DNA from: Daphnia pulex
Taxonomy: Eukaryota; Arthropoda; Branchiopoda; Diplostraca; Daphniidae
Direction of reading: 5' to 3'
DNA: 64,000 bases
Assembly: GCF_021134715.1 (NCBI RefSeq)
Contig: NC_060025.1
Span: forward strand, 1,054,001 to 1,118,000
The translations under genes and the position numbers were made by a program. Under the pieces are notes generated by a model. It saw nothing but the letters and a program-made list of their open reading frames with translations. It was not told the origin of the DNA and made no database searches. Of this stretch, positions 540 through 54,783 are shown in pieces. The first letter of the stretch is position 1. Every line of letters starts with the position of its first letter.

Positions 540-1127
540 TCGGAATATTTTGCTGCTAGTGATTGCTCAAGAAATTGGTGTACGTGGGGATTAAACTTCG
601 ATGGGGAGATACGTTAAATTAAGCTGTTGAATCCTGTGCCGATTGAGAATTTTGTGTAAACTGAATTCAATTTTTCAAATCAAAGTTTCTGTTCTTGTTT
701 GAGATATGAAACACTTGGATTTATCGTTTATGTCAAAATTAATCTTCAATCATTTTTATGTGTTTATATTGATGGTGACTTTATCTGAGTTCTGAATGAG
801 AGAGAGTGTTGAGGTTTGTGTTGAACTCATTCAGCACTAGATGGCAGTGTTTGTGTTTTACTGAGAAAACATTGAAGACAACGTCGGTGGAATGACGCTG
901 TGGGTCTCGACGTTGATTCAGAGAAGTTAAAAGATACTTCCTTCTCTTTCTGTGTGGATCGTGTGACAAGGAGCGGGTGTGTTGAGGTGCTGTGTGGATT
1001 GAATTGATGTATTTGGTGGGACTGATGTGCAGCTTATCTCCTATGCTAATCGGGGGTCTGAATGTGCACTCTGCGCGAGTGTTCAGACTGACAAAGCTCT
1101 TCTCTGATAATTTGTGTCTTAACAGTT
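540..1127. other. No gene; possible 3' flank or LTR of the copia remnant
   Basis: This stretch is T/G-rich and broken by stops in all frames. It follows the RNase H end directly, so it may hold the rest of the element and its 3' LTR. No second LTR is in the window to prove this, and no clear TG...CA boundary could be fixed. Confidence 0.4.
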
Positions 1128-1500
1128 CCTCATGGTTTGTTTTATTGGACATCATATCCCTACAACTATGTTGTCGTTTGGACATTTGCTAAATTGATTT
1201 AAGAAAAAAATTTGAATAGCATTTACACAGTATGTTTAACATAACATTTTTGCAGCTTTTGAGAACTTATTGACCGATAAAAGAGGTGTCTAATAAGGCT
1301 TAACTGTGTGCACATCGTGAAATGAATATGGATTGATCATGTGTTTGAAATTTAGATAAGGTTATTGCAGAGGAATATTTTCAAAAAAGCCAACTGTCCT
1401 TCAAACGATTCGAAATAGAATATTCATTCACCGAAGAAACGAGTCAAATGACTTAAATGTCAATTGGTTTAAAGTGAGTAAAGTAAATAATAACCATAGC

Positions 1501-2020
1501 CATAACCATTTGATATTCATTTTGATATTGGTTGTTTGTAGACTCATCCCCCAGCAACGTCAAAATGCAGAAGGAAAGGCCAGTTTGCATGTCTTTCATA
1601 ATCGAAGGTCACGGAGATCATTACGTAAAACGTGCCATGCAGTGGTGTAGAGGTTGGGTGAGAACGGAATGTGTTCATAACCATTTGGTATTCAGTTTGA
1701 CATTGGTTTTTGTAGACCCATCCCCCAGCAACGTCAAATTCAGAAGGAAAAGCCAGTTTTGCCTCGCACGTCTTTCATAATCGAAGGTCACGGAGATCAT
1801 TATGTAAAACGCGTCATGCAGTGGTGTAGAGGTTGGGTGAGAATCAAAACCATTTGGTTTTCATTTTGATATTGGTTGTTTGTAGACCCATCCCCCAGCT
1901 ACGTCAAAATGCAGAACGAAAGGCCATTTTTCATGTCTTTCATAATCGAAGGTCACGGAGATCATTACGTAAAACGTGCCATGCAGTGGTGTAGAGGTTG
2001 GGTAAGAACGGGATGTGTTG
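1501..2020 (+). repeat. Three tandem upstream repeats of about 170 bp, left arm
   Basis: Units start near 1501, 1677 and 1846, each with an AACCATTTG block followed by TTGGTT...GTAGAC. Each unit contains CATCCCCCAGC, a GTCACGGAGATCATTA block and CATGCAGTGGTGTAGAGG. The first and third carry TTACGTAA, a palindrome of the type bound by PAR-bZIP factors; the second reads TTATGTAA. They end about 65 bp before the TATA box of the repeat-protein pseudogene, so they may have been its regulatory array. That role is an inference. Confidence 0.8.
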
Positions 2021-2085
2021 CTTCATCATCAATTTGGTACAATAGCCGCAAGGCTTAAAAGGTGGGTCAGGGTGAGAAAAAGTCG

Positions 2086-2119
2086 TATAAAAGGAGAGAG
2101 AAAAGGCGATAGAGATCAG
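2086..2119 (+). promoter_or_regulatory. TATA box and TCAGT initiator of left-arm pseudogene
   Basis: TATAAAA lies at 2086-2092 and TCAGT at 2115-2119, so the initiator A is 31 bp from the first T of the TATA box. This is standard arthropod core-promoter spacing. The start codon follows at 2200. Confidence 0.75.
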
Positions 2120-2199
2120 TCGAGTGAGCATCTCCGACACGGCAACACCTGCAGCGCACTATTGGTGCCTTCATTATCGTATTACATCAGTTCGCAATC

Positions 2200-3296
2200 A
2201 TGGGTAAATATTCGTTTTTATTTCCAGTCGTGAATAAATTCTAACTTGTTTCTAGTTGTTGATAAGACACGTTAAATTAGAAAATTAATTTGCAAATTGT
2301 TAATTGTGTAGTTAACTATGGCGTTGTGCTGATGTCGGGTGTTGTATCGTTGATGGCTGCGTCGACCACAGGTGTACTAATGTCTCCTGGGTATGGTGGA
2401 TACCAAGCAACAGCACCGAAAGAAGACTACACCACGTCACCGCCTCACTACAAAAAAATGTTAACGTACGCAACACCTACTTACTACACCGAGGCCCCCA
2501 ACTAGTACACCACCGAGGCTTCAGAGTATTACACGAAAACTTATGCTGCCCCGAGCTACTACGTCGAAGCCACCAAGTATTACTCTGCCCCGAGATGCAT
2601 CACCAAAGCGCTTGAGTATTACATTACAACTTAAGCTGCTCCAGCTTACTATAATGATTATAACTACTATTCTGTTCCCAGGTACTATACCGAGGCTCAA
2701 GTTTATTACACCACTAAAGCTGTCGAATACTACACCGAAGCGCCCAAGTACTACAATGCAACATAGACTGCCCCAGCTTAGCACACGGGAGGCACCGGCG
2801 AGCACCGGAGTACTACTACACCACCCCCGAGGCACTGAAGTACTACTACACCACCCCCGAGGCACCGGAGTACTACTACACCACCACCGAGGCACCGGAG
2901 TACTACTACACCACCACCGAGGCACCGGAGTACTACTACACCACCACCGAGGCACCGGAGTACTACTACACCACCACCGAGGCACCGGAGTACTACTACA
3001 CCACCACCGAGGCACCGGAGTACTACTACACCACCACCGAGGCACCGGAGTACTACTACACCACCACCGAGGCACCGGAGTACTACTACACCACCACCGA
3101 GGCACCGGAGTACTACTACACCACCACCGAGGCACCGGAGTACTACTACACCACCACCGAGGCACCGGAGTACTACTACACCACCACCACCGAGGCACCG
3201 GAGTACTACACAACTACTTACGCTACTCCGACCTACTACACCGAAGCTCCAAAGCACTACTCTACCCCGAGTTACTACACTACTAAGGCTCCTTAA
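2200..3296 (+). pseudogene. Dead secreted YYTT/EAPE-repeat protein gene, left arm
   Basis: Exon 1 is ATGG (2200-2203) with donor GTAAAT; exon 2 starts at 2312. Together they encode a signal-peptide-like start (MVNYGVVLMSGVVSLMAAS) followed by Tyr/Thr/Pro/Ala repeats such as YYTEAP. The frame is broken by TAG at 2503, TAA at 2632, TAG at 2764 and TAG at 2779, and by a frameshift near 2806. Beyond that the original repeat frame (EAPEYYYTTT) continues to TAA at 3294-3296, ending YYTTKAP. An AATAAA lies at 3390. Intact relatives would be secreted, Tyr-rich, cuticle- or mucus-like proteins. The same lesions occur in the right arm. Confidence 0.85.
2800..3200 (+). repeat. 30-bp tandem repeat coding EAPEYYYTTT, left arm
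   Basis: About 13 units of GAGGCACCGGAGTACTACTA plus CACCACCACC run nearly without change. The first few have CCACCCCCG or CACTGAAG variants and the last has one extra ACC codon. In the original frame each unit gives ten residues, EAPEYYYTTT. Long open frames on both strands here are by-products of the period-30 repeat. Confidence 0.95.
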
Positions 3297-3769
3297 TACT
3301 TGAGTCGAAATTTCTATTATCATTTAAATTCGTCGGTTATCTTCATGGTTACTAGTGACTATGAATTGATTGTTGATCTTAAACGAGAAAATAAAAAATA
3401 CTAAAGAATAAGACTTTTATTAATACCTACCTTTTCGACATTTCGACAGGCGTTTCTATTTGTGTTGACTTCTTCAATGTTAGTATGCTGTGTTATGATT
3501 TGTTTGTTTCATGTATTAGAGATGACTACTGCCTTAGTTGCTTGGCATACGGACATTCTTCTGCTTTGACGATTGTTTTAGAGTAAGTTGCGAAAGAAAG
3601 GTGCTGCGTTAAGTATACTCTAAATTTTGATTTTGAATTGTATCTTGAGCATTTTTTCGATAAGGGAATTCATTTTCAGAGGGAAAATATTCCAAAGTTG
3701 TGATTGTTGATTTCGTCAAGTCTTACAAGTAATAGGTAAATGGCTGATAGATTTTATAAATAAGGAAGA
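3297..3769. other. 3' flank of left-arm pseudogene; no gene
   Basis: AT-rich DNA with a polyadenylation signal at 3390-3395 and no coding frame that can be supported. It separates the pseudogene from the dispersed repeat. The mirror stretch is 8028-8500. Confidence 0.6.
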
Positions 3770-5907
3770 CTTTGAATTTGTAAGAAATATATTGATACAA
3801 TTCCTAAACAAGACTTGTTATAAATTAAAAGACAATCAACAAAAACTTATAAAAAGAATTGCTTTATTGTCCCACCTCCACCCACAATTCCACCACATTT
3901 TACAATCACATAGTCATACATACATACATACACTTAAGTTAACCTGTTGGCTGCCACGCCATACAACCCGTAGGTTGTTCTCTACTCTCTACGCGCCATG
4001 TCTGAAGGATCCATGACCAAGGTGGGACTTGCCATTGCTGACAAGTCCGGGCTGACAGGGAAGATGGAATGCACGCATTTAGGAGGCCTCTAGGAGGCCC
4101 GTGCTAAGGAGGTAGGGGGGAACAAAGGCGTGGCAGACAACGGATTAACTAACACAAATATTACCAACAACAAATGATGATCCGCGCTGACATTTTGGAG
4201 ATAACGGAGATGTTTTGGTGTCCATCTTCTCGACGTCTCCTCTGCATTACCTGAATAAAGACAAAACAATTGTTATTAAGTTACATGTAGGTACATTGAT
4301 CTGGTTTTTTTGCTCAAAACTTTACAGGCGCTTGAAATTTTTGCTTAGAATTAGCTTTCAATATTAAGAACTGTACACAGAACAAAGCTCACTTGCTACT
4401 TTTATGAAAAAAAATTCCGGAAGTAAACCGGAAGTAACCACAGCGCCTCAACCACTGAGCTGTCGTCAAATTAAACCACATATTCGTGATCTCCATGAAA
4501 TTTGGGGTCGATTAGGTGTGATTTAAACGAAATCCAAAATTTGGCCAAAATCGAGAATTTTCCTGGACTATATAGTTCAGGAAAATTTTCAAAACCGGAA
4601 GTACGAAAACGTACAAAACAAAACATGAACTTTACCACAAATTTGACGAGGATCACGAATTTGTGGTTCTTTTGTGCGACGAATGATTATTTACTGAACT
4701 ACTGACTGAAATCATAAAACCGGAAGTAGAAAAAAAAACACATTTTTTAAAATCTAACAAGTGAGCTTTGTTGGGGGAATAGTTATCGTCAATTTTCACT
4801 AAAAAATTTCCACACAACAGCTGCCCATAAATGTTTAAAGAGATTTGAAAGTAACTGAAATTGACTGTTTTGACATCTGACAATTATCGAAAAGCCATCT
4901 AGCGTTAGAAAAAGAAACGTCTAAGTAACAAGCTAAGTTGCGCGCTGATTTTGAAATTATTACACAGACAGAGAGTTTAACGCAAATAGATTACTAGTAG
5001 ATAATCTACGAAAATAAGTCAATTGTCCGGTACCTGGCCATAATCCTGTTGTGAGTGACTGCAGGTGTGTCACAGCAACTGAAGTGAACTAACTCGCCAG
5101 TGAAGCAGCAAAGAAGACACTTGAAGGATGAGCGTACGTCTTGAAGATAAGGATGGAGCAGAACGTTGGTGGAAGTCCCTCTTCTATCATGGACAAAATC
5201 CAGCATTCAATTGCTCAAGGATGTCCGTGGGGATCTTGCATGCTCTGTAAAAAAAATGTGTTGCAATGAAAATATAGAAATTAAAAAAGCATTTTAAGCT
5301 TTACCTTTTCTAAGAAGCACACTGAAATGTTCATGATGAAAAACCATAATAATGGAATTACAGCAGCCAACAGCATTACTCCTCAGGTGGGATAAATTTC
5401 CTGACGATAAAGAAATTGTCATGAAGTATTGCAGTAGCGTGGTGAAAGGTGATGTTGATGCTTACCTTTATCATTTGGGTGATGATTTAGTAAGGCATTT
5501 GACGTAGTGTGGTTGGTGTGGTAGCAGTAGTGGGAACATACCTTATCTCCTCACATTTGTATTCCACTCTATGTGGGCTTCAAACAGGAGTTTTAGGCTT
5601 TTGACAGCATGAGGATCTAATAGATGGAAAGTGACTGAGCGCTAAGTCAACTTGTTGGAATGACTGACAGCAGCTATGCATCTAAATTTGAAGAAATAAG
5701 TTGGTATAATAGAAAAATAAGGAAACTAGGTCAAGATATTAAACCTGCATAAGATACGAAGTTCCATTTGGTATTTGAAATCACATAAATATAAGTATTA
5801 ATTAACTGCAATTTGTTTCGCCATTTTCGACTCGTTTCACGATGTAACAATAACAAGGGCGACACTAGCGACATCTAGTAATGAGTTTTGAATCTTTTGA
5901 AAGTTGC
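3770..5907 (-). mobile_element. Unrecognised dispersed repeat, copy 1 (minus orientation)
   Basis: Read on the minus strand it begins near 5907 with GTGCAAC...AGATTCAAAACTC and the block ATTACTAGATGTCGC. It runs through splice-like signals to a conserved 3' part holding CAGTCCCACCTTG-type unique sequence, GTATGTATGTATG and AATAAAGCAATTC, and fades near 3770. It matches copies at 5915-8027 and 54784-57214. No long protein is encoded. No terminal repeat or target duplication was found, so its class is unknown. Confidence 0.75.
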
Positions 5908-5937
5908 ACAAATACTTGTTGTATGTTGTTCCTATGT
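5843..5937. repeat. Palindrome spacer built from repeat 5' ends
   Basis: The two arms stop matching at about 5842 and 5938. Most of the spacer, read on the minus strand (GTGCAACTTTC...ACTCATTACTAGATGTCGC), matches the start of the third repeat copy at 54784-54835. The right edge (TGTTGTTCCTATGTCATG) resembles the next part of that copy. The centre is therefore two 5' ends facing each other, with the right copy slightly truncated. Confidence 0.7.
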
Positions 5938-8027
5938 CATGAAACGAGACGAAATGAGCGAAACAAAACAAATTGCTGCTAATTATATTTATATTCCTGT
6001 GATTTCAAATACCAAATGGAACTTCGTATCTTATGTAGGTTTATCTTGACCTAGTTTCCTTATTTTTCTATTATATACCAACTTATTTCTTCTAATTTTA
6101 GATGCATAGCTACTGTCAGTCATTCTAACAAGTTGACTTAGCGCTCAGTCACTTTCCATCTATAAGATTCTCATACTGTCAAAAGCCTAAAACTCCTGTT
6201 TGAAGCCCACATAGAGTGGAATAAAAATGTGAGGAGATAAGGTATTTTCCCACTACTGCTACCACACCAACCACACTACGTCAAATGCCTTACTAAATCA
6301 TCACCCAAATGATAAAGGTAAGCATCAATATCACCTTTCACCACGCTACTGCAATACTTCATGACAATTTCTTTATCGTCGGGAAGTTTATCCCACCTGA
6401 GTAATGCTGTTGGCTGCTGTAAATCCATTATTACGGTTTTTCATCATGAACATTTCAGTGTGCTTCTTAGAAAAGGTAAAGATTAATATGCTTTTTTAAT
6501 TTTTATATTTTCATTGCAGCAAATTTTTTTTTTACAGAGCATGCAAGATCCCCACAGACATCCTTTAGCAATTGAATGCTGGATTTTGACCATGACAGAA
6601 GAGGGACTTCCACCAACGTTCTGCTACATCCTTATCTTCAAGACGTACGCTCATCCAGCTTCACTGCTTCAGTTCTTCTTTGCTGCTTCACTGGCGAGTT
6701 AGTTCACTTCAGTTGCTGTGACACCTGCAGTCACTGACAACGGGATTATGGCCAGGTACCGGACAGTTTACTTATTTTCGTGGATTATCTACTAGTCATC
6801 TATTTGCGTTAAACTCTCTGTCTGTGTAATAATTCCAAAATCAGGCCCTTCTTGCGCGCAACTTAGCTTGTTACTTAGACGTTTCTTTTTCTAACGCTAG
6901 ATGGCTTTTTGATAATTGTCAGATGTCAAAACAGTCAATTTCAGTTACTTTCAAATCTCTTTAAACATTTATGGGCAGCTGTTGTGTGGAAATTTTTTAG
7001 TGAAAATTGACGATAACTATTCCCCCAACAAAGCTCACTTGTTAGATTTTAAAAAATGTGTTTTTTTTTCTACTTCCGGTTTTATGATTTCAGTCAGTAG
7101 TTCAGTAAATAATCATTCGTCGCACAAAAGAACCACAAATTCGTGATCCTCGTCAAATTTGTGGTAAAGTTCATGTTTTGTTTTGTACGTTTTCGTACTT
7201 CCGGTTTTGAAAATTTTCCTGAACTATAGTCCAGGAAAATTCTCGATTTTGGCCAAATTTTGGATTTCGTTTAAATCACACCTAATCGACCCCAAATTTC
7301 ATGGAGATCACGAATATGTGGTTTAATTTGACGACAGCTCAGTGGTTGAGGCGCTGTGGTTACTTCCGGTTTACTTCCGGAATTTTTTTTCATAAAAGTA
7401 GCAAGTGAGCTTTGTTCTGTGTACAGTTCTTAATATTGAAAGCTAATTCTAAGCAAAAATTTCAAGCGCCTGTAAAGTTTTGAGCAAAAAAACCAGATCA
7501 ATGTACCTACATGTAACTTAATAACAATTGTTTTGTCTTTATTCAGGTAATGCAGAGGAGACGTCGAGAAGATGGACACCAAAACATCTCCGTTATCTCC
7601 AAAATGTCAGCGCGGATCATCATTTGTTGTTGGTAATATTTGTGTTAGTTAATCCGTTGTCTGCCACGCCTTTGTTCCCCCCTACCTCCTTAGCACGGGC
7701 CTCCTAGAGGCCTCCTAAATGCGTGCATTCCATCTTCCCTGTCAGCCCGGACTTGTCAGCAATGGCAAGTCCCACCTTGGTCATGGATCCTTCAGACATG
7801 GCGCGTAGAGAGTAGAGAACAACCTACGGGTTGTATGGCGTGGCAGCCAACAGGTTAACTTAAGTGTATGTATGTATGTATGACTATGTGATTGTAAAAT
7901 GTGGTGGAATTGTGGGTGGAGGTGGGACAATAAAGCAATTCTTTTTATAAGTTTTTGTTGATTGTCTTTTAATTTATAACAAGTCTTGTTTAGGAATTGT
8001 ATCAATATATTTCTTACAAATTCAAAG
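5915..8027 (+). mobile_element. Unrecognised dispersed repeat, copy 2 (plus orientation)
   Basis: Same repeat as copy 1 in opposite direction. Intron-like signals include donor ATGTAG/GTTTATC near 6030 with acceptor TTCTAATTTTAG near 6102, donor AAAG/GTAAGC near 6320 with acceptor TTTTTTACAG near 6537, and acceptor TTTATTCAG near 7546 before a 28-codon open frame at 7550. An AATAAAGC polyadenylation-type signal lies at about 7930. An A-box-like block GCTCAGTGGTTGAGGCG sits at 7337-7353. It could be a transposon-derived transcription unit or a duplicated noncoding gene; the sequence alone does not decide. Confidence 0.75.
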
Positions 8028-8500
8028 TCTTCCTTATTTATAAAATCTATCAGCCATTTACCTATTACTTGTAAGACTTGACGAAATCAACAATCACAAC
8101 TTTGGAATATTTTCCCTCTGAAAATGAATTCCCTTATCGAAAAAATGCTCAAGATACAATTCAAAATCAAAATTTAGAGTATACTTAACGCAGCACCTTT
8201 CTTTCGCAACTTACTCTAAAACAATCGTCAAAGCAGAAGAATGTCCGTATGCCAAGCAACTAAGGCAGTAGTCATCTCTAATACATGAAACAAACAAATC
8301 ATAACACAGCATACTAACATTGAAGAAGTCAACACAAATAGAAACGCCTGTCGAAATGTCGAAAAGGTAGGTATTAATAAAAGTCTTATTCTTTAGTATT
8401 TTTTATTTTCTCGTTTAAGATCAACAATCAATTCATAGTCACTAGTAACCATGAAGATAACCGACGAATTTAAATGATAATAGAAATTTCGACTCAAGTA

Positions 8501-9597
8501 TTAAGGAGCCTTAGTAGTGTAGTAACTCGGGGTAGAGTAGTGCTTTGGAGCTTCGGTGTAGTAGGTCGGAGTAGCGTAAGTAGTTGTGTAGTACTCCGGT
8601 GCCTCGGTGGTGGTGGTGTAGTAGTACTCCGGTGCCTCGGTGGTGGTGTAGTAGTACTCCGGTGCCTCGGTGGTGGTGTAGTAGTACTCCGGTGCCTCGG
8701 TGGTGGTGTAGTAGTACTCCGGTGCCTCGGTGGTGGTGTAGTAGTACTCCGGTGCCTCGGTGGTGGTGTAGTAGTACTCCGGTGCCTCGGTGGTGGTGTA
8801 GTAGTACTCCGGTGCCTCGGTGGTGGTGTAGTAGTACTCCGGTGCCTCGGTGGTGGTGTAGTAGTACTCCGGTGCCTCGGTGGTGGTGTAGTAGTACTCC
8901 GGTGCCTCGGTGGTGGTGTAGTAGTACTCCGGTGCCTCGGGGGTGGTGTAGTAGTACTTCAGTGCCTCGGGGGTGGTGTAGTAGTACTCCGGTGCTCGCC
9001 GGTGCCTCCCGTGTGCTAAGCTGGGGCAGTCTATGTTGCATTGTAGTACTTGGGCGCTTCGGTGTAGTATTCGACAGCTTTAGTGGTGTAATAAACTTGA
9101 GCCTCGGTATAGTACCTGGGAACAGAATAGTAGTTATAATCATTATAGTAAGCTGGAGCAGCTTAAGTTGTAATGTAATACTCAAGCGCTTTGGTGATGC
9201 ATCTCGGGGCAGAGTAATACTTGGTGGCTTCGACGTAGTAGCTCGGGGCAGCATAAGTTTTCGTGTAATACTCTGAAGCCTCGGTGGTGTACTAGTTGGG
9301 GGCCTCGGTGTAGTAAGTAGGTGTTGCGTACGTTAACATTTTTTTGTAGTGAGGCGGTGACGTGGTGTAGTCTTCTTTCGGTGCTGTTGCTTGGTATCCA
9401 CCATACCCAGGAGACATTAGTACACCTGTGGTCGACGCAGCCATCAACGATACAACACCCGACATCAGCACAACGCCATAGTTAACTACACAATTAACAA
9501 TTTGCAAATTAATTTTCTAATTTAACGTGTCTTATCAACAACTAGAAACAAGTTAGAATTTATTCACGACTGGAAATAAAAACGAATATTTACCCAT
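8501..9597 (-). pseudogene. Dead secreted YYTT/EAPE-repeat protein gene, right arm
   Basis: Mirror copy of the left-arm gene: start ATGG at 9597-9594, exon 2 from 9485, in-frame stops at 9292-9294, 9163-9165, 9031-9033 and 9016-9018, the same frameshift, and the same number of 30-bp repeat units (8597-8997). All predicted translations in the two arms agree. The damage therefore predates the arm duplication, or has been copied between arms since. Its promoter and upstream repeats are mirrored at 9678-9711 and 9777-10296. Confidence 0.85.
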
Positions 9598-9677
9598 GAT
9601 TGCGAACTGATGTAATACGATAATGAAGGCACCAATAGTGCGCTGCAGGTGTTGCCGTGTCGGAGATGCTCACTCGA

Positions 9678-9711
9678 CTGATCTCTATCGCCTTTTCTCT
9701 CTCCTTTTATA
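9678..9711 (-). promoter_or_regulatory. TATA box and initiator of right-arm pseudogene
   Basis: Mirror of the left-arm promoter: TATAAAA on the minus strand at 9711-9705 and TCAGT at 9682-9678, spacing 31 bp. Confidence 0.7.
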
Positions 9712-9776
9712 CGACTTTTTCTCACCCTGACCCACCTTTTAAGCCTTGCGGCTATTGTACCAAATTGATGATGAAG

Positions 9777-10296
9777 CAACACATCCCGTTCTTACCCAAC
9801 CTCTACACCACTGCATGGCACGTTTTACGTAATGATCTCCGTGACCTTCGATTATGAAAGACATGAAAAATGGCCTTTCGTTCTGCATTTTGACGTAGCT
9901 GGGGGATGGGTCTACAAACAACCAATATCAAAATGAAAACCAAATGGTTTTGATTCTCACCCAACCTCTACACCACTGCATGACGCGTTTTACATAATGA
10001 TCTCCGTGACCTTCGATTATGAAAGACGTGCGAGGCAAAACTGGCTTTTCCTTCTGAATTTGACGTTGCTGGGGGATGGGTCTACAAAAACCAATGTCAA
10101 ACTGAATACCAAATGGTTATGAACACATTCCGTTCTCACCCAACCTCTACACCACTGCATGGCACGTTTTACGTAATGATCTCCGTGACCTTCGATTATG
10201 AAAGACATGCAAACTGGCCTTTCCTTCTGCATTTTGACGTTGCTGGGGGATGAGTCTACAAACAACCAATATCAAAATGAATATCAAATGGTTATG
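9777..10296 (-). repeat. Three tandem upstream repeats of about 170 bp, right arm
   Basis: Mirror image of the array at 1501-2020, with the same three variants in the same order relative to the pseudogene. Confidence 0.8.
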
Positions 10297-10669
10297 GCTA
10301 TGGTTATTATTTACTTTACTCACTTTAAACCAATTGACATTTAAGTCATTTGACTCGTTTCTTCGGTGAATGAATATTCTATTTCGAATCGTTTGAAGGA
10401 CAGTTGGCTTTTTTGAAAATATTCCTCTGCAATAACCTTATCTAAATTTCAAACACATGATCAATCCATATTCATTTCACGATGTGCACACAGTTAAGCC
10501 TTATTAGACACCTCTTTTATCGGTCAATAAGTTCTCAAAAGCTGCAAAAATGTTATGTTAAACATACTGTGTAAATGCTATTCAAATTTTTTTCTTAAAT
10601 CAATTTAGCAAATGTCCAAACGACAACACAGTTGTAGGGATATGATGTCCAATAAAACAAACCATGAGA

Positions 10670-11521
10670 AACCCAACCCATGAAGGACCATGAAATTTAG
10701 ACTAAAGTACTAAAGGTCATCAATTCAGTTATCTCAAGTCCCGGGTTATTAGGTAGGGGATACTGAAAGTGGTTTTGAATAGTCACTAATAATCATAATA
10801 AATAAATTTGAATAGTCGAAGTCTGTTTGAAACCTTGGTGATGTCGCCAAGAGCCCGAGACAAGTCGTTCTTCAAATTTCGATTCGTTTCCGAAATGATA
10901 TTTTCATATTTCAAACTATGATAACATAAGCAGATGAATAAACTTAATACCATTTTCACCATCTGTTGTTCTATAACTAGTAGAGACTCAAACTCAAACA
11001 ATCACAATCACTGAATCACATCAGTCACAGTATCACAGTATTACAGTCTCAACTCTCAACTTAACACTCAACACACACAAACACATTTTCTGTAAAACTA
11101 GCAGACGAACTTAACTTTCATATGTGACATTGCCAAATAAAAAAAAACTCTTTGTGTGTGTGATGATCTCAGCAAATCCGGGAACCGCCGAACCGGGATC
11201 TTTTTTTTTCAAATTTCGATTCATTTCCGAAATGATATTTCAAATTATGATAGCATTCAGCAGACAAATAAACTTAACACCATCTTTGATATATGTTGTT
11301 CCATAAGCGTGAGCACCAGTTGAAATTAAATAACTAGCTTACGTACTAGAAGAATTCAGGAGTTAGTAATTGTATGTAATTGATAAACTCTATTTTTCAA
11401 TTGCGAATCATATAACTCTGCAAATAACAAAATTCTCACATAGCGCAGCCACCTAGAATGAATAAAATTGAATCTTCTCCAAACATTAGCTAAATGTTGT
11501 CAAAATATTCAGCATTCGAAC
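10670..11521. repeat. Non-palindromic flank with a 100-bp direct duplication
   Basis: Two similar direct copies lie at about 10873-10976 and 11205-11305, sharing TTCAAATTTCGATTC, TTTCCGAAATGATAT, AATAAACTTAA and CACCAT. On the minus strand the first copy holds a 71-codon frame starting at 11001 with a hydrophobic stretch (MVLSLFICLCYHSL); the second has an equivalent MVLSLFVC then a stop. This may be a decayed duplicated exon. Nothing else was recognised here. Confidence 0.5.
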
Positions 11522-12749
11522 TTAGACAAACAGAGAAGAAGGGCCATAGAAGGAGGGGACGGGAGCCAGTTGTTGCTGGTTGTGGCCGACCTGTTGCTGA
11601 TACGATGGGGCCGCTGACGACTGTTGCTCCTGATGAAATGGACCGGATGGAGCCGCTGGAGCTTGCTGCTGCTGATAGGCTGGAGGAGCAACTTGCTGTT
11701 GCTGGTAGGATGGAGCCGCTTGGGTCGGCTTTTGTTGAGTTGGGGTGGCTGGAGGAGGTTGTTGATAAGATGGAGCGGCTGGAGACTGCGGTTGTTGTTG
11801 TTGATATGATGGAGCTGGAGCTGTTGGAGTCTGTGGTTGGTAGGTTGGAGCTGACGGAGCCTGTTGTTGATAGGAAGGAGCTGAATGCTGCTGCTGGTGA
11901 GAAGGAACCAATGGAGTCGGCTGTGGCTGGTAAGATGGAGCGATTTCATTTTGCTGTTGGTGAGACGGGGTCGGTGGCTGCTGAGCCCCACCGTAGGAAG
12001 AGGAAGCTGGAGCCTGTTGTTGGTGCGATGGAACCGCTGGGGCCGATTGTTGTTGATAAGATGGGGCCGATGGGGTTTGTTGCTGGTGGGATGGACTTGC
12101 TTGGGTCGACTGTTGGTAGGTTGGGGCTGCCGGAGAAGGTTGTTGGTAAGACGGAGCGGCTGGCGTCTGCTGTTGTTGGTACGATGGAGCTGGAGCCGTT
12201 GGGGCCTGTGGCTGGTATGATGGTGACGGGGAAGCCTGTTGCTGGTACGACTGAGGCGCTGGAGGATGTTGCTGAGATGGGGCCGATGGAGCAGGTTGCT
12301 GATAAGAAGGAGCCGATGAAGCTTGCTGCTGGTAGGATGGAGCCGCTGAGGCTTGTTGTTGGTACGGTGCTGGAGTTTGTTGCTGAGGTTGCTGATAAGA
12401 AGGAGCAGGTTGTTGGTAGGCTGGAGGAGCGACTGGGGCTTGTTGCTGGTAGGACTGATAGGTAGGTGAAGCAGCTGGTTGTCGATGGCCTGGTTTTGTA
12501 TTTGATGAATAACAAATTTTATTCGTTACTGGTAAAATTCAACGTCAAAATGAATAAACATATTAGGAAATTTACTAACGTTTTCCTTTAGTTGCTTCTG
12601 AGCCTTGTTGCATAAGCACCAAAGCAATCACGAGCGCACATTTGATCGAGTTCGTTACCTGTTGAATGAAAATAAAACATGGATGAATAACAAAACTTAT
12701 CATTTAAAGTACTAGACAGCGAGTTTGTGATTTTCGTTACCTTCCACAT
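11522..12749 (-). CDS. Secreted Gln/Pro/Ala/Tyr-rich repeat protein A
   Basis: Three exons on the minus strand: 12741-12749 (ATGTGGAAG), 12580-12658, and 11522-12528, joining in phase to give 364 residues ending at TAA 11522-11524. Residues 1 to about 25 (MWKVTNSIKCALVIALVLMQ) look like a signal peptide. After a short spacer the rest is imperfect repeats of the type APSYQQQ, APSHQQQ and TPAAP, with almost no charged residues. Such proteins occur in arthropod cuticle, silk, cement or mucus; the exact role is not known. The 3-codon first exon is common for secreted arthropod proteins. Gene B at 14664-15525 has the same exon plan and repeats, so the two are tandem duplicates. A long plus-strand frame over the last exon is a shadow of the repeats. 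Confidence 0.85.
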
Positions 12750-12827: not shown

Positions 12828-14663
12828 TCAGTCAGCTCGTGTAGTAGAAAGTCTACTTTTGGTGCAGCAATGTGCACCTTGATGTACAACTATAGCAGAC
12901 ATTTTCTCCTATTCTGTAAATACATATTATTTCTGCTCATCAACGGGAAAAAAGAGAACCAAAAGTATACATCTTCGTGGCTTTGTGGTAGACCCAGTAT
13001 CTTCCCTTCCAGCCCCGACTCTGGAAAAACCCGTCCTCAGCTCCTCACATTCTATCGTACATACATTTACCACGCGTCCCATTCCTGCTGCATTATTACT
13101 TATTTATTAAATCGGGTTTTCGAGGCGTTGTGAGAAAACTATTTCTTTTCGACAGTTGGTTAACAGTAGGCTATGGGGTACAAAAAACACGGTAAAACCC
13201 GTTTTCTTCCTATCTCTCTTTTAAATTAATGTTTTAGAAAGTCAAAATCTACGGTATTTCACTATAAAGGAAACGCGCAATTAGGGCCGTACGAAAAAGC
13301 CATTACCGTATTTAATCAATGTCATGGCGCTTAAATTAGAAAACTACTAGTTATTTGGTTACAAAAATGATAAATAGGGAACGAAGTGTGGACATTTCCC
13401 ATAGCAGCTCCATCGTCCTACCAGCGCAAATCGTCAAATCCAAGTGGACACTAGCGACAATAATTTACTTATAACTAAATTTTTTAAACTGAACCATTTT
13501 CTCCTTCTATCCACTGGGCAACGACCAACCAGCCATCCTATCGAAATAAATTAAGTTGAAACGTGACAAATGCCATTTCGCATGACGTGTGAAATCTCTA
13601 AACCACACTCCTTGACGTGTGTTGTGGGATATAGTGGCCATATAGTGAGTGAAAGTGGACAGACTATAACAACAAACTTTCAAACGTAGAGCGAGCTCAA
13701 AGAATATCAAAAACATCTTTAATTGATGTGTTATGCTTCTCTGTTTTAGCAGACTAATTATTTCAAAACGGCTGTAACAAGGAGGTATGGCTGGCAGTTC
13801 CTCTTTGTCATTAAATTCTCTAGTTGTACAGTTGCCTCCAAGAAAACTAGAATGTTTAAAAATTTCAAGCAAAACAGCTTAACACTAAACAGCTTAAAAA
13901 TAAACTTGCATGAATATATGAAAATGTTATGTTTACCATGTTTTCTAATAAAAAAACGATTGTTTTTCACTTGTGATATTTTCCTGCAGGAACAGCACTG
14001 GATTGATTTGCCCACAAACAACCTGTTTGTTTCACAATGAAGGTGGTTGAATGATACCTGAATACAAAAATGTTTCAATTTTAACCTCTAAAAGCAGAGA
14101 GCAAGTAGAAAATTTTCTGTCTAAACCATGTTTTCACATTGCAACACAATTGCTTTGACATAGCAAAACTTTAACTTTACTTATTGATCATTTCAACTTG
14201 TATTTTACCATTTTACCATCTTTCAGCTGAATTTCAAATGTTACCATTCAAATTTCGTCTCATTTTTTTTTTAAACTAGTAAACAAAATGAAAGCAGACG
14301 ACATTTTCTTAATACTGCCATCTCGAGGAAATCGACAGAAACATAAAAATGGAGCCCATTCAAAAGCCAAACCGCTCAAAAACGATCAAAGTGGCTTTCT
14401 CACCCGCGCTCGACAAACTTTAAAAACTAGCCAATAAAAGATATGCGAAGATTTGTTACATCATTTCCTTTCTTTAACTTTGTTCAGTTTTCCATATCGC
14501 TGGACAGTAAAGGGAATGAAAAGTCATCACTTGCTGTAAGTCAATATATTCTCTATATAATTTCTGGAAGTATCATTTCAACAAATCTTTTAGCTTACAT
14601 TTAAGATGCTAAAGAGGATAAAGATCTAAAGTTTAACTGGAAATGTAAATGTTCTACATTTTT
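12828..14663. other. Intergenic region between repeat genes A and B
   Basis: AT-rich, without a supported gene. Sequence at about 13880-14040 (AGCTTAAAAATAAA, ACCATGTTTTCTAA, CGATTGTTTTTCACTT, CCTGCAGGAACAGCACTGG) recurs in inverse orientation at about 40235-40395, so it belongs to a dispersed repeat. A 121-codon minus-strand frame near 13507-13872 has no recognisable motif and is not called. Confidence 0.55.
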
Positions 14664-15525
14664 CTAGTAAGCTCCTCCGGCCTGAGGAGAAGCCCCGCCG
14701 TAGGGAAAGGCAGCTGAAGCCTGCTGCTGTTGATACGATGGAGCCGCTGGAGCCGATTGTTGCTGATAAGATGGGGCCGATGGGGTCTGTTGCTGTTGGT
14801 AGGATGGAGCCGCTTGGGCGGGCTGTTGGTAGGTCGGGGCTGCTGGAGCAGGTTGTTGGTACGAAGGAGCGACTGGAGTCTGCTGTTGCTGTTGATAAGA
14901 CGGGACTGGGGCTACAGGGGCCTGTGGCTGGTATGATGGTGATGAGGAAGCTTGTTGCGGGTATGACTGAGCCGCTGGAGCTTGATGTTGCTGTTGGTGA
15001 GATGGAGCCGATGGAGCAGAGTGTTGGTAGGATGGAGCAGCTGGTGCTTGCTGCTGGTACGGTGAAGTTGCTGGAGCTTGTTGCTGATAAGAAGGAGCCG
15101 AATGGGCCTGCTGCTGGTGAGACGGAGCAGGTTGTTGATAGGCTGGAGGAGCGACTGGGGCTTGTTGTTGGTAGGGCGAAGCAGACTGCGAATGTTGCTG
15201 GTGAGATGGACCAGCTCCTGAATGAGTTCCAGTATTCGAACCACCATAATTTGAGCCGGAAGAGGGTGATGGTTGAGGGGGAGCTCCGTAACCGCCGCCT
15301 AATAAAAGAGGCAAGAATTTTATTTCAAAGCAATAATGAAAAAATATGTTTTAACTTCATGCTGTATGTGTAATGTTATTGAAATACTTACGTTGTGCTT
15401 CAGTTCCATGTTGATTTAGCATCAGACCCAACAACACAATACATTTAAAGGTATTCACGATCTGAAAAACAAAGAAATTCAAGATTAGCCTAAATAAAAT
15501 AAGATAAGACAGTTTGCTTTACCAT
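14664..15525 (-). CDS. Secreted Gln/Pro/Ala/Tyr-rich repeat protein B
   Basis: Exons on the minus strand: 15523-15525 (the ATG alone, donor GTAAAG), 15392-15461 and 14664-15298, joined in phase to 235 residues ending at TAG 14664-14666. The start MIVNTFKCIVLLGLMLNQ is a signal peptide, followed by a Gly/Tyr/Ser segment (GGYGAPPQPSPSSGSNYGG), then repeats such as APSYQQQ, APVAPPAYQQ and TPSAPSYQQQ, and a Gly-rich tail GGASPQAGGAY. It is a shorter paralogue of gene A, 2 kb away in the same direction. It probably forms an extracellular Gln/Tyr-rich material; function is inferred from composition only. Plus-strand frames here are shadows. Confidence 0.85.
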
Positions 15526-23371: not shown

Positions 23372-26180
23372 GTGTGTACAACCCCGGTACAACCCTGTGT
23401 ATAGCCAGCATCATCTAATATACCGGTGTGTATAGTATATAGCGATCGATAAAACAGCGACAGCACAGCCCATCAGTCTTGAGCGCCAATTTCTTTTTTT
23501 CGGTGTTAATTCACAACACAGCAGTTGCTCCTATAAATAGACACAAGTTAAAATAAACATCAGAGACGGCGAGAAGAGAGTCTATAAGGTTCAAGATGCT
23601 GGCGGTTGACGTGGTATATAGACGCGAGTTTATGTATACATACGGCGGCGCTTGAATGTCTAAAAGTTGCGGTCGTCCGTTTGTATATAATCTGCGCTGA
23701 TGGTGTCATCGCGCGACACGAGTCGAAGTGTTGCGGGAGTATAAGTTTTTTTTTTCTTTTCGTGTAAACGATTCTGTATATAGAGATTGCAATCAGTTCG
23801 TTTTTTTTCGCTGGGTTGCCATAGGGCCAGATGGAAGAGGGGAGGGGGAAACGGAACAGGAAAAAGTTTAGAACGAACGAACGAAATAATAAAAAAAACC
23901 GAGGACTTGTATTACGAAAATCCCGGGGCAAATTGCAGTCGACGAATTCTAACTTTTGGGAAGAGGCGGGGAAGAGGAAAACGACGGGGAATATAAGTTT
24001 GGCGACAACAGCGGATCGCCCAGTAGGATATATTCAGCATCCATCCACCAATGAGAATCTCGTGCAACCCAAATGGAGTCGAGAGCCCCAGTCTCATTCG
24101 TATGTAATATAAACTGCACCTGACAAGGGGGATGAAAATAGACCAGCAAACTGAAACTTGACAGAGATTTTAAAATTCAATTATAAAGAAAGCGAAAAAA
24201 TTTAGAAGAAATCAGTTTTGACGGATGTATTCCGGCCCTCCGCTGTCGTATTTAGTATATTAGGAAATGGTATATATTATTATATCCTGTGGGGGTTTTC
24301 GTCCATGTGCTGGGGCTGTAACAACATCACAATCTGGGTCGATTCGCCGGGAAATGTGGAACGCGGCTACGACGACGACAGTTTGTTGTGACTGCAGAGC
24401 GTTCGGTATATATACATATATATAATTGCATTTCTATGTTTATTTTTTCTGGTCGTTTTGCCTTGGTTCGTCGCTTTTTCGTCTAAAATGCGAGCAGCTA
24501 GCGCGGCGGACGACCGGCTATAACTTCGTTCCTTTTCAATCACAGGTGCCACTCTGAATTTTGATCGAGTCCATCCGCCCGTGTGATACCAAACAGTCTG
24601 CATCAAAAGGATGGAAGGAAGAGAGCGAGGTTTTTATAAAAATAAAAAAAAATAGAGAAGAAATGATGAATAAATTGCCAGATTAGTTGCTGGGGGGAGA
24701 AAACTCGTTTGCCATGCCCTGTCACCGCGCAGCGCTCTGATACTGGCTATATGCTTTGCAATATTCACAGTTTGTTTAGGCGCTTCTCGTTTATTGTCCA
24801 ACTTTCGACTCAAATAAGGCCAGCCCTATATGTAGCGCAGCTCTCACACGAAAACGACGTCAAGATTATATAACCAACGCGGGTCTGGGCAACGGAGCAT
24901 GGTGCCATGACAGCAGAAAGAGAGCCCCTGCTGCTCGTGCCTTCTTGTATGCACAGTTCCTTATGTCTGGAAACAGAAAAAAACAAATAGACAAGATGAA
25001 AATAGACCAGCAACGTGCCAGTTAGCCTACAAAATTGAAGCTTAACCCCAAAACAAAAAGAAGCTGTACAACGGAAAAAGTTCGCCGAGTGCAAAAGTGA
25101 TGAATCGACAAATGAATAATTATTTATTGCGCCAATGTATATTAGTCGTTTCTCCGAATCGTTTTATATAACAACGCACGTGCGGGCTTTTCTTTTCTTT
25201 CTAGATGGCAATCGATGAGTCACAGCACGACCGCGATCATTAGTATTACGTATAGAGTGTGCCAAGAGAGCGCTGTCTCGAATGGGAATTCACGATCATC
25301 CGATCGTGAAAGATATAGAAGCGATCAATTTCCCTCCTATTGTTGAATTTTTTTTAGTTTAACAGAGTTATTATATACGATTGCGCATTATAATACATTT
25401 TCAAAAGCCAAAAGATCGATGTGCACCCAGCGAAAATTGTCTATTGACATTTGGACAATTGATTCAAAGTTAATTCGTCGATAAATGTAAGAATAAAAAA
25501 AGGAATAAACGTGAATAAATCGGCAGAATAGAGGGGGGAAAGTGATATATTTCTTTTGCATAAGTGATTTTGTGATGTAGACTATATTGATCACCGAATG
25601 TCGTGGCCGGAGCTCATGCATTATAATTCAAGCGACGAAATAAAAGCCCGCGTGGAATCTTTTATTCATTATATTCGGCCCGGTTCTATTGCGTGACTCG
25701 AGTCAGATTGGGTCAACTGTCCATCATCAGCTGACAGGTCCAACTTGGTCTTTATTAGCCCGATCTGTATAGTATAGGCTATAACGTGACTACCGACGAT
25801 TATTACATACACACCGGCAAGCATAAATCATACATAACTATCTACAACAACAGTTTGTCGATTATTTAGACACACTAAGTACATCACGAAGGACGCAATT
25901 AAGTTTTTCGTGTCACAAAAAAAGTATACAAGAAGTTCTACAACAGATATAAAAGACGTGCTGTAACTCGCAAAAGTCCAAGTTATTATATCCCAACTTG
26001 CGCGTCACATCATGTCCTTCGATAAGTTCATACCGCAAGTAATTATAAATATTTAAAAAATCTGAACATTTCGCGCCCATTTTGCGGCGCACAAACAAAT
26101 ATGAACCGATTTATAGAAAAGCAATCGACGATCGAGGATTGATAGACAGTAGCTCCCAGGAGCGCCAACCGATCAAAAGG
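23372..26180. other. Intergenic region upstream of the first ammonium transporter
   Basis: No gene, RNA or repeat recognised; many short TATA-rich stretches. The transcription start of the downstream transporter was not located. Confidence 0.5.
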
Positions 26181-28800
26181 ATGGATAATAGTACGGAGGA
26201 GGTTCTCAACAGCAGCTCCTTGATCGGCAGCAGCGATGATAACAAAGAACGTCAGGAGCCAGTAGGCCTTCGCAGCAACACTAATAACTTGACGGAGCAA
26301 TTCGTTCTTCTCCTGTTGGAGTACAATCTCGGCCCTTTGCGACGCAACTTGGACGACTTTTTCCTCGTTCTACTTGCCTTGATCACTTACGGTAGATACA
26401 AATAAAAGATGTAAACATATAATAACGAGGAGAGAGATCTATATTCTTTTTATATTCATATGCCAAAAAACAAAACCAAATCGATTATTGTTGTGTAATA
26501 ATAATATCAAAGGCCTACAAATGGGATTCCTCTTCTTCGAAGTTGGATTGGTGCAGAAGAAGAACGTGACCAGCGTCTTGTTCAAGAGCATTCTCGATGG
26601 ATGTAATAATAGACAAATTTCTTTTTCAATTGAATACATATTATATCAGCAGACATCAACAAACTGATGTAAATCGAATAACCGCCATTTTGTTTTTTAT
26701 TTGTGTGTTCTATGTATTACCCAGACGTTGGTTGTGTTTCGTACTGGCTATTCGGTTACGCTCTGGCTTGGTATAGTATACATAGGCTAAATAACTCACC
26801 ATGTCGATTGACGTAATACGACTATATCTGCAAAGTCCTAATTCATTTATGTCTATTCCATCTCAAAATAAAGGGGAGATGGCAACTCTTTTGTCGGTTG
26901 GAACCACTTTGCCTTCGCCCATCTGCCCGGAGAAAAGTATGTACACAAAAATCAATTGATGCGTCAGTTTACCTTTTGAACACGAGCAGCGAGCCGCTTT
27001 CATCCGCATTTTCTTCTTTTTTGGGGGGGAGTTCCGTTTGATTCAATTGATAACATGGCAGCGCTGGCTGTGTTGTTTTTCTATACAGATTGGCTTTCGC
27101 CCTGTACCAAATGATTTTCGCCAACACGGCCAGCACTTTCGTGGGCGGCGGAATGGCAGAGCGGATGCACCTCCCCTGTTATTTCACCTACGGAATCCTG
27201 CAAACGGGTATAATACGAAGAGAAACAATCCGGAATTATTTGGTAGATGGGAAATTCGGTTGACATTTTGATTGACGCGTATAGGAGTGGCCTATCCGAT
27301 CCTGAGTCGATGGTCCTGGAACCAGGAAGGATGGCTCAAGGCCATGGGCTACAGCGACGTCTCCGGCTCGGGTGTCATCCACCTTTATTCCGGCGCTTGC
27401 GGTTTCGTATCCGCCTGGGTGATTGGACCTCGTTCCGGCCGCTTCCCTTCCGCCCAAGGTGATCCTCAAGGCTCCAGCATCTTACCAGCTCACTCATTAC
27501 CGGTACCACACAATTATTTGATGATTTTCATTTTTCCCAGGAATCCATTAATGAATTTTCCTTGAACTGGATGTAATTAGTTAGTCAACATTGGCGCCAT
27601 GTTGTTGATTTTTGGCTTCGCTGGATTCAATGCCGCTTCTCAGCTGACCATCAGCCATCCGGGAGACGGATTCGTCGTTGCCCAGGCCACTTTCAACAGT
27701 TTTCTAGCCTGCAGTTCCGGCGGGATAACATCCGTCCTTTTATCCCGATTTCTGCCATGGTTCGGCCATCGCTCCTGGAATTACGGAAATCTGGTCAACG
27801 GATCCCTAGCCGGAATGGTAATCCATTTCATCCGAAAAAAAAATGGAGCGGATGATTATAACGGATCGATATTATTTTTATAAAAAAAGGTGGCCGTTTG
27901 CGCTGGATGCGGATCTTTGGCTCCTTGGGCGGCGTTCGTGACCGGCTCCTTGGGCGGTTTATCCTTCCTCTGCGGCCGATCCATCGTCGATAAACTCAAG
28001 GGTATTACTATATACTTAATACTTTCATATTCTTTAAATAGTTGTAATATTGTTTATATATAACTCTTAGTGGACGATATGCTGGACTCGTTCGCCCTCC
28101 ACTACTCGGCCGGACTGGTGGGACTCATAACGGCCCCTTTCCTCGTACCCAACGGCCTCTTGTTTAAACCGGACGTAGCCTCGTCTAAGGTTCGTGTCGA
28201 ACATAAATATATATACATCCAGCATCCAGCCGACAGCAGTCCATAAAAGATTGATGTCCGGCCAGTATCAGCAGCCGAGAAATGTGTGTAACATTTGCGC
28301 AAGTTCTCAATTGTTTATTAGACGCTTGGCGTCAACTTGCTGGGCGTCCTAGTCATCACCGGATGGGCCGTCGTGTGGTGTCTGCCGCTCTTCCTGGGCC
28401 TGAAGCAGCTGGGCGTCTTGCGGGTTCCCTTGGAGACGGAATCACGCGGGCTGGACGTGACGGAGCACAGCGGCGAAATTGCTTATCATCTCTCAGACTC
28501 GGAGGACGCGGACATGGACACGTCCGGACGTGTTTCCATTCCCAAGGATTCGCTACTAGAAGCTAACCGACTGCTGCTGGATCGGCTCGACTGCAAGGAC
28601 CAGCAGCAGCTGGCCATAAGTATGGACGTATATATGTACAGTTGTCGTTATAATGTCAACGGACAACAATGGCCAAACTTGTGTGTGACGGATGAATAAT
28701 GGAATGTGCGCATTTAGGGCGGAGGAGGGCAACGCTGTTCAGCCGGCGGAGGTACTCGTCGGTGGTCGGCATCCATCCGGATGTGTTTTATCTGCCGTGA
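26181..28800 (+). CDS. Amt: Ammonium transporter, Amt/MEP/Rh family (copy 1)
   Basis: Eleven exons join in phase: 26181-26391, 26513-26602, 26725-26770, 26874-26936, 27089-27207, 27285-27502, 27581-27817, 27890-28001, 28071-28189, 28322-28619, 28718-28800; 531 residues. Amt proteins are trimeric plasma-membrane channels for ammonium/ammonia with about 11 membrane helices. Hallmarks seen: EVGLVQKKN, YWLFGYALAW, FVGWNHFAF, YQMIFANTASTFVGGGMAER, the pore His in SGSGVIHLYSG (H209), FGFAGFNAASQ, VCAGCGSLAPWAA and the second pore His in LDSFALHYSAGLVG (H376). The N-terminus is extended (about 50 hydrophilic residues from MDNSTEE), and the tail ends with a run of arginines (RRRR). In-frame codons extend upstream of 26181, but no ATG. 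Copy 2 lies 0.9 kb downstream in the same direction. Confidence 0.93.
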
Positions 28801-29672
28801 ATAGAACCCATTCCATTCCATACTCGACATTAGAGAGAAAAGCGAGTCGATCCAGCTGCGGATTTGAACTAACAACAACAACAGCAGCCGGACCCGGTGC
28901 TGCTGGATGAGTTGGACTGCCCCCGGGCGGCGGATGGAAATAAATATAGAATAGCGCGTGCTGTGTGTTTTTTGTCGGACATTTATTTCGGTCGCCTTTT
29001 GTCATTTTTAGTTTTTTGGCCAACTCAAACAAATAACTTGGCGAGCTCTATAGTTAACTTTCATAATCAGCGCGCGTGTTTTCAATTGTTTTTCTGGTTT
29101 GGTTTTTGGACAATAAAAATAGAAAAGTCATGGGATTTTATTTTTCTTTGAAATGCGGCAATTTAAAACCCAATTAAAGGGTTTTAAATTGATTAGATTT
29201 AATTATTCTTTCGTACCATATGACCTTTATTATATACGTCTGGCGTCTGGCTCATAGTCCTTCCGGCCATTAATTATTAGCCGCCGGGGAAATTCAGATT
29301 TTCTCACCAATTGACAAACAAGAATTGGAGGAGGGGCGACAATCCCGCGCCAAAAGGTCAATTCCCTTTTACTACAAAATGTTACCTAGGTAACAAAGCG
29401 ACGATGTCATTATTTTACCTTTAATTTATTTTTTCCAAAATTTAATTTAAAACTAATTAATCCAAAGATATTTAATTATTTTCCTCCAAAAAGAAAATCT
29501 ACAACAAATTCCAAATTTGGTTTCGTTTCGAATTTTATGTAAATTTTTCCTATACCCCGGAGGGGTGGGGGTATCAAATCGATAAGTTTCCCCGGTAGGT
29601 GTAAATAGAGGGGGTTGGGTAAGGTAAATGAAACTACTAGGGGGAGGAAAGGTGAGATTCGACAGTCGCCAG
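28801..29672. other. Intergenic between the two transporters
   Basis: Holds likely polyadenylation signals of copy 1 (AATAAA near 28938 and 29112) and AT-rich spacer. No additional gene. Confidence 0.55.
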
Positions 29673-29677
29673 TCAGT
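29673..29677 (+). promoter_or_regulatory. TCAGT initiator of transporter copy 2
   Basis: TCAGTTG at 29673 fits the arthropod initiator and lies 43 bp before the start codon. No TATA box is visible at the expected distance, so this assignment is tentative. Confidence 0.45.
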
Positions 29678-29715
29678 TGAGAGCTCAGTGCCCGGCCGTC
29701 CACCACCTGACGAGA

Positions 29716-54396: not shown

Positions 54397-54783
54397 CTTG
54401 AAAGGGAAAAATTAATGTGAACATTATTGTCTTGAAAAACAGTAATTCAAAATATTTTTGGTAAAATAACTAACCTGCAACAGAAATGATTTTGCTTCAG
54501 AAGACATAGGTTGTGAGCTTGCATTTTTGGATTAGACCATTTCATTTCTATTGTCACGAGCAGTTGTACCTAGTTGGCCAGGTACATGAAAGTCAAGAAG
54601 TAGTAAAAGTTAGTCAAGAATGCAGTAAGAATTTTTAGCTGAAGAATGTTTTATCTATTACTTAAAAACAGTTAACTTGTTATCCGATCTCCGTTGTTAA
54701 ACTTTTTAAGTAACTTATGAAAGTTACGACGTGTAATCACTGTAATGTAATGTCATGTGACTCATGTCTGTCTGTGATTGACT

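Follow-up and report, generated by a model that had tools for sequence, protein, structure and literature searches.

An old palindrome with a pair of convergent gene copies in Daphnia pulex, one of a dispersed family, probably maintained by recurrent gene conversion between its arms

How does a long palindrome come to have outer arms that agree almost base for base and inner arms, flanking its center, that differ at many positions? The question is raised by a 64-kb stretch of the Daphnia pulex genome, here called the window (contig C9, positions 1054001-1118000), which contains a 9.5-kb palindrome at 1125-10672 with two convergent gene copies, each aimed at the center. A first-pass annotation had explained the two tiers by fold-back replication primed between two pre-existing head-to-head repeat copies, the old copies keeping their divergence and everything beyond them being newly made, and had named gene conversion limited to the outer arms as the alternative. 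Our comparison of the palindrome with its relatives in the same genome favors the alternative: we posit, with a probability of roughly 0.8, that this is an old palindrome, one member of a dispersed family, maintained by recurrent arm-to-arm gene conversion.

The palindrome is real, far beyond chance. A comparison of the window with itself by the Basic Local Alignment Search Tool (BLAST) returns a single inverted match, 1125-10672 against 10672-1125 (E = 0), and together with an alignment of the two arms it confirms the annotated structure, coordinates included, to within a few bases. In that two-sequence alignment the outer tier, which we take to be homogenized, consists of the left outer arm at 1128-4888 on the forward strand and the right outer arm at 6911-10669 on the reverse strand. 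Over 3.76 kb these arms show 3 differences in all (C/T at 1128, A/G at 1168, and a 2-bp indel at 4569-4570), and their longest run of identity extends over 3400 bp, from 1169 to 4568. The step to the inner, apparently unconverted tier is abrupt and lies at 4889. Here the left inner arm (4889-5842, forward strand) and the right inner arm (5938-6910, reverse strand), assigned by their innermost 93 alignment columns to arm types A and B, respectively, differ over 0.95 kb by substitution at 50 of 944 aligned bases (5.3%; 26 transitions and 24 transversions) and also show ten indels that range from 1 to 10 bp, two being of 1 bp, which bears out the annotated impression of many base changes and indels. 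The inner arms are separated by an asymmetric center at 5843-5937 whose layout, when junction sequences are set side by side, is that of two other palindromes on the same contig, L009 and L010. Plotted against distance from the center, mismatches number 67/980 below 1 kb, 1/998 at 1-2 kb, and 2/2766 beyond 2 kb; the profile is thus two-tiered rather than uniform, as the annotation had maintained.

The window palindrome has relatives. The left arm, used as a query against 133,188,837 bases in 13 contigs of a single assembly, from which all palindromes described here were read, yields at least 170 matches spread over many contigs. Among the copies listed, 20 regions were examined, which makes the palindrome counts lower bounds; long near-identical inverted arms are present in eight of them (L009, L010, L020, and L024-L028) and absent from 12. 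Seven of these eight share the window geometry, in which a gene-downstream block is mirrored and ends at the center (arm position about 5818-5910): L009 and L010 on contig C9, L024 on C8, L025, L027, and L028 on C7, and L026 on C2. The genome therefore holds at least seven further palindromes of the window gene family, and these seven plus the window form the set of eight that was pooled. At L020 (C9:8228000), inverted arms of ~3.7 kb with 99.6% identity surround a 3.3-kb non-palindromic middle in which part of the family block is present once; on account of that middle, this possible ninth palindrome (P020, comprising L020 and L037) was excluded from the pooled counts.

Across the eight palindromes, with gaps left out, the arms mismatch at 987/7791 positions (12.7%) within 1 kb of the center, at 113/7986 (1.4%) between 1 and 2 kb, and at 71/33412 (0.21%) beyond 2 kb. 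When identity is read in 250-bp bins, most outer bins of the eight stand at 99.6-100%, and identity drops in the innermost 0.25-2.75 kb at the window, L009, L010, L024, L025, L027, and L028, giving a two-tier profile at seven of eight loci with a step whose position varies. The eighth, L026 (C2:897000), is a nearly perfect palindrome centered near 6722 with a spacer of about 24 bp; at 1-2 kb its arms mismatch at 33/999 positions, all of them 1.09-1.38 kb out. Near-perfect identity over kilobases is a trait of the palindrome arms and not of the family as sampled, because 15 sequences of ~1 kb (14 dispersed copies and one window arm) have a median identity of 88.8% and a best pair at 99.2%. The idea that the family is homogenized everywhere was dropped, since the dispersed copies compared differ by 11% at the median. 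The GC content of the core block is 0.370 in the window arm and 0.355-0.382 in the other 14 sequences.

What separates age from recent copying is the comparison of arms within and between loci, made in two trios of palindromes: the C9 trio (the window, L009, and L010) and the C7 trio (L025, L027, and L028). In 150-bp windows beyond the inner tier, the two arms of each C9 palindrome are 100.0% identical (gaps ignored), and the same windows compared between palindromes are about 2-14% different in most cases, and 27% and 32% different in two. A maximum-likelihood tree of 1025 outer columns clusters the six C9 arms by palindrome with bootstrap 100. The innermost 93 columns yield another tree, also with bootstrap 100, in which type B arms (window right, L009 left, L010 left) are split from type A arms (window left, L009 right, L010 right); six sites divide all A arms from all B arms, and one layout of the asymmetric junction is common to the three loci. 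The C7 trio behaves alike: 998 outer columns, 2.9-4.15 kb from the center, cluster by palindrome (100), and 830 inner columns, at 0-1.2 kb, place the three right arms together (100), with 42 sites setting right against left arms and none of these farther than 1.23 kb from the center. The switch from one tree to the other means that the palindromic center predates the split of the loci and that the outer arms were made identical after the split, separately at each locus. The palindromes thus go back to a time before the loci compared diverged, and their inverted arms are much more alike than this age predicts. Because the center is common to the loci by arm type, the outer arms must be old and recopied. 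Faster intrinsic evolution of the inner block was considered and rejected: between C9 palindromes the inner and outer blocks show about equal divergence, barring a heterologous stretch in the A arm of L010.

The outer ends of the arms differ from the inner ends. At the five palindromes with both ends known (L024, L026, and L027, whose arms reach or near the edge of the sequence, were left out), the outermost 300 bp hold 30/1500 mismatches and the next 300 bp 1/1500; the innermost 300 bp hold 352/1439 and the next 300 bp 178/1471. At L027 the last 300 bp examined lie inside a tandem repeat and show 15/300 mismatches. A simple symmetric edge effect of conversion tracts is disfavored because the outer edge is almost intact, and even placement of tracts would blur both edges alike. 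Several arms also outgrow the part that the family has in common. The shared core of the arms, which hold a host-like gene, begins near 1242 in the junction alignment; beyond it the window arms continue through 1125-1241 on the left (forward strand) and its mirror at 10556-10672 on the right (reverse strand), the outermost matches to the other loci compared beginning at 1242 and ending at 10555. Mirrored flank without a match to the other loci compared amounts to 117 bp in the window, 207 bp at L010, about 1.67 kb at L009, and at least 1.3 kb at L026. L028 has no mirrored flank past the core, and L024 was left unscored because its outer arm holds a stretch matching C9 copies.

Flanks in the C7 trio offer the clearest instance of such possible extension. 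L028 carries one flanking sequence, U, on its left and another, V, on its right; L027 carries V on both sides; and at L025 U, of which about 170 bp are recognized, is mirrored on both sides over about 84 bp. The U/V arrangement would be the older state, with V copied across in one lineage and U in another. A single inversion between L028 and L027 that moved flank V is rejected, as it would yield U/U and V/V, but L028 is U/V. L027 (C7:1740000) lies about 127 kb from L028 (C7:1613500) and is by inner sequence its close duplicate: their matching arms are 97.8-100% identical out to about 1.5 kb from the center, and beyond 3.0 kb the two loci are 4-7% different, though the arms are identical within each. 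L025 and L028 have a 100% stretch in common near 3.0 kb. Both patterns suggest that sequence is at times exchanged between palindromes.

We posit that, through recombination between the arms, one of them is time and again replaced by a copy of its partner, so that each locus would keep near-identical arms as separate loci drift apart. Such copying would seldom reach the first 0.25-2.75 kb beside the center, where differences would build up, and arm-type differences older than the locus split would persist over the final few hundred bases, or as much as 1.2 kb at the C7 loci. At the other end it would reach the outer border and at times overrun into flanking DNA, creating new symmetric flank. 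The agent is presumably recombinational repair; the center may be spared either through the folding back of breaks that fall there or through better survival of palindromes whose center is asymmetric, and failure of conversion at the center or survival of asymmetric centers would each give a divergent center.

Several observations weigh against this reading. The spared center could stem in part from old heterology rather than from position, and the pooled inner count is inflated by L010, which supplies 213 of the 987 inner mismatches owing to heterology in part of its inner tier; the count falls to 774/6800 (11.4%) once L010 is excluded. L026 breaks the center rule, with 7/999 mismatches below 1 kb. 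The arms of L028 are 2-8% different in 5/6 bins between 1.25 and 2.75 kb and stand at 92-98.6% identity in the outermost bins. The additional flanks, where they span 84-207 bp, could represent homologous DNA diverged past detection, and in a single assembly polishing could turn nearly identical arms into seemingly identical ones. The inner tier of the window itself fits incompletely: with the A arm of L010 set aside, 29 of the 31 differences found between 4889 and 5500 are each private to a single window arm. In a tree of columns 4950-5500 from the five remaining arms, in which the L009 arms pair (100), both window arms fall on one side of the split with a support of only 82.

These last points also qualify the annotated claim that the old copies keep their divergence. 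It holds for the arm-type differences, 9 of 28, which are confined to 5608-5859, the last ~250 bp before the center, and fails for the private ones farther out. The part of the inner tier at 4889-5500 may either have been homogenized once and then drifted or have diverged after the split of the loci. The closer to the center, the older the last homogenization would be, a gradient rather than a simple relic of two untouched copies.

Could the outer arms instead have been made recently by a one-off fold-back or template switch between two old head-to-head copies? The abrupt step at 4889, near-perfect identity outside the presumed primer repeats out to sharp outer borders, and the mirrored flank beyond the shared core are what such an event would leave. 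However, sister palindromes at L009, L010, and other loci already have both gene-bearing arms and the same center, and the two-tier profile recurs at seven of eight palindromes with differing step positions; a single fold-back event, the cause preferred by the annotation, is for these reasons not supported, and we regard it as very improbable. The outward direction of synthesis that it entails survives in modified form, since identity reaches the border and the arms run past the core into locus-specific flank. An artefact of assembly or polishing, whether a fold-back read or collapsed arms, is about equally improbable. There is a single assembly, artificial palindromes made by scaffolding are a known problem (PMC7953838), and the inner differences of the window are mostly private to one arm. 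Yet these differences are mostly substitutions, the innermost arm types recur at independent loci, the eight family palindromes lie on four contigs, and loci stand several percent apart while their own arms agree. Sequencing error in raw reads, or a fold-back read, at the center was likewise rejected as unlikely: besides the excess of substitutions, the nine innermost window differences are found again, sorted by arm type, at L009 and L010.

Two further explanations concern how the pattern is maintained. Repeated one-ended outward copying, akin to break-induced replication (BIR), could maintain and lengthen the arms in place of two-ended conversion, a serious possibility that falls somewhat short of even odds. 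The edge effect is much weaker outside than inside, flank is mirrored at the window, L009, L010, and L026, U at L025 and V at L027 appear to have been copied across, and in yeast inverted repeats close to a break are reported to steer repair toward BIR (PMC6103520). Nevertheless, the arms end after a limited distance, which requires the copying to halt or change template; flanks could also be moved by ectopic exchange from one palindrome to another; the recognized U is short; and L028 lacks mirrored flank. In the other explanation, conversion acts equally everywhere, and palindromes homogenized to the center are unstable and lost, leaving mainly asymmetric centers to be seen. Indels are indeed present in the inner tiers, and mammalian long inverted repeats are stable only after gaining central asymmetry by deletion (work cited in PMC1803023). 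The inner tiers, however, differ by many substitutions and not by deletions alone, and the persistence of L026 with its nearly perfect center argues mildly against such loss; survivorship is a possible, though not a likely, source of the pattern. More tentatively, the palindromes can be pictured as self-extending units: a break in either arm would be mended by one-ended synthesis that uses the opposite arm as template and runs only outward from the center, so that the outer arm is kept identical, the center is hardly touched, and flank is at times copied across and the palindrome grows. This picture is possible though doubtful; it would make the divergent center a rule of position.

The arms carry two copies of a Tyr/Thr/Pro-rich gene, at 2084-3296 on the forward strand and 8501-9713 on the reverse strand, identified from the sequence and its stop-to-stop frames and, on the right, from identical open pieces at mirror coordinates. 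The left copy, which has a signal-peptide-like start, is decayed; by eye it has a TATA-like box near 2084, a short exon 1 at 2200-2203, and exon 2 from 2312, followed by in-frame stops ending at 2505, 2634, and 2766 and then by a frame change, and the same stops and frame change are present in the right copy. Relatives of the gene at L010 retain an open frame of 311 codons in each arm. The product would be a secreted-looking repeat protein. A Pfam search gave no match for the L010 open frame and, for a window gene piece, an extensin-like match only, far below the cut-off; ARAGORN found no transfer RNA. We take Tyr/Thr-rich repeats of this sort to be typical of Daphnia. Within the gene copies, a repeat scan delimits 30-bp tandem arrays at 2802-3209 (forward strand, APEYYYTTTE units) and 8588-8995 (reverse strand); they are equal in length, with 13.5 units each, in agreement with the equal unit counts first annotated. 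Upstream lie three tandem units of about 165-179 bp at 1501-2019 on the left and three of about 165 bp at 9778-10296 on the right (forward and reverse strands, respectively).

A dispersed, non-palindromic single copy of the gene-downstream block lies in the window at 54783-57215 on the reverse strand; it is homologous to arm positions ~3769-5910, in pieces at 84-87% identity, and served as a comparison sequence. The centerward end of this block is marked in the palindrome by a conserved stretch at 5858-5890 of the GGCGACACTGGCGACATCTAGTAATGAG type, which is present at the corresponding position in most of 31 block ends compared and is missing from the three type B arms of the C9 trio. At L012, a separate self-palindrome of ~1 kb (6321-7297; 95.8%) lies just past the family block.

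The remaining features of the window lie outside the palindrome. Near its left border, a frame at 1-600 has the look of a retroelement RNase H, presumably of the copia type. On the minus strand, 11490-12540 and 14626-15350 hold paralogous Gln/Pro/Ser-rich repeat genes of the PSYQQQ type, with 79.5% identity across a 488-bp alignment. Open frames at 26049-26405 and 29656-29994 have a common RNLDD motif followed by a hydrophobic stretch, and we take them to be exons of a duplicated membrane-protein gene. The region at 60638-61773, with a visible HRDIKPANLL motif, presumably contains protein kinase exons, and a 93-bp tandem repeat lies inside a Thr/Pro-rich reading frame at 63168-63361.

Palindromes maintained by gene conversion are known from the human Y chromosome and from Caenorhabditis. 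In Caenorhabditis, inverted paralogous gene pairs, divergent and convergent, duplicate as units, and gene conversion has been proposed for them; at F44E5.4/5 the genes are 100% and the intergenic arms 95.7% identical (PMC1803023). Arms there are more alike within a genome than between species, and inner arms can be less alike than genes; the evidence is from comparisons between species, and the text available does not present the lower inner identity as a general pattern (PMC1803023). Here, in contrast, loci of one genome are compared, the divergent center is measured, and locus-specific flank is mirrored. Arms of the human Y palindrome P6 are likewise homogenized by conversion, in kilobase tracts (mean 2068 bp) and with rare inversions, and GC-biased change in its arms has been reported; P6, however, lies on a sex chromosome and has arms of about 100 kb and a large spacer (PMC3723533). 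The Daphnia arms measure about 4-8 kb, and the zone left unconverted is a palindrome in its own right. To our knowledge, Daphnia lacks sex chromosomes. Expansion of human Y P8, for which non-allelic homologous recombination, BIR, or microhomology-mediated BIR has been suggested, also takes flanking DNA into the palindrome, but P8 is a copy-number variant among men, whereas here 0.1 to about 1.7 kb of flank is mirrored at loci of one genome (PMC6790999). Fold-back inverted duplications, for which fold-back priming is the proposed origin, have inverted arms as well; they are described as chromosome rearrangements, whereas the window palindrome has an old center common to other loci (PMC3907307, PMC10622511). 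In yeast, fold-back structures are reported to arise from breaks beside inverted repeats if the spacer is short, with gene conversion disturbed and repair directed into BIR (PMC6103520). D. pulex is stated in PMC7953838 as not screened there, and among the papers listed by searches on Daphnia palindromes and conversion, no title or abstract opening describes the ones seen here. New here are the replicate palindromes in one genome, the unconverted center in seven of eight, and the outward overrun.

What allows long palindromes to endure, and whether copying between arms is uniform along their length, are open questions in the field. Eight related palindromes in one genome provide replicate profiles, several of them with arms that outgrow the shared core, and make two questions testable: at what distance from the center conversion sets in, and whether the copying runs outward from one end only. 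They also caution that a two-tier palindrome should not be taken as proof of a single recent fold-back event. If these palindromes are indeed self-extending units, a divergent center would be a position rule for long palindromes rather than the relic of one event.

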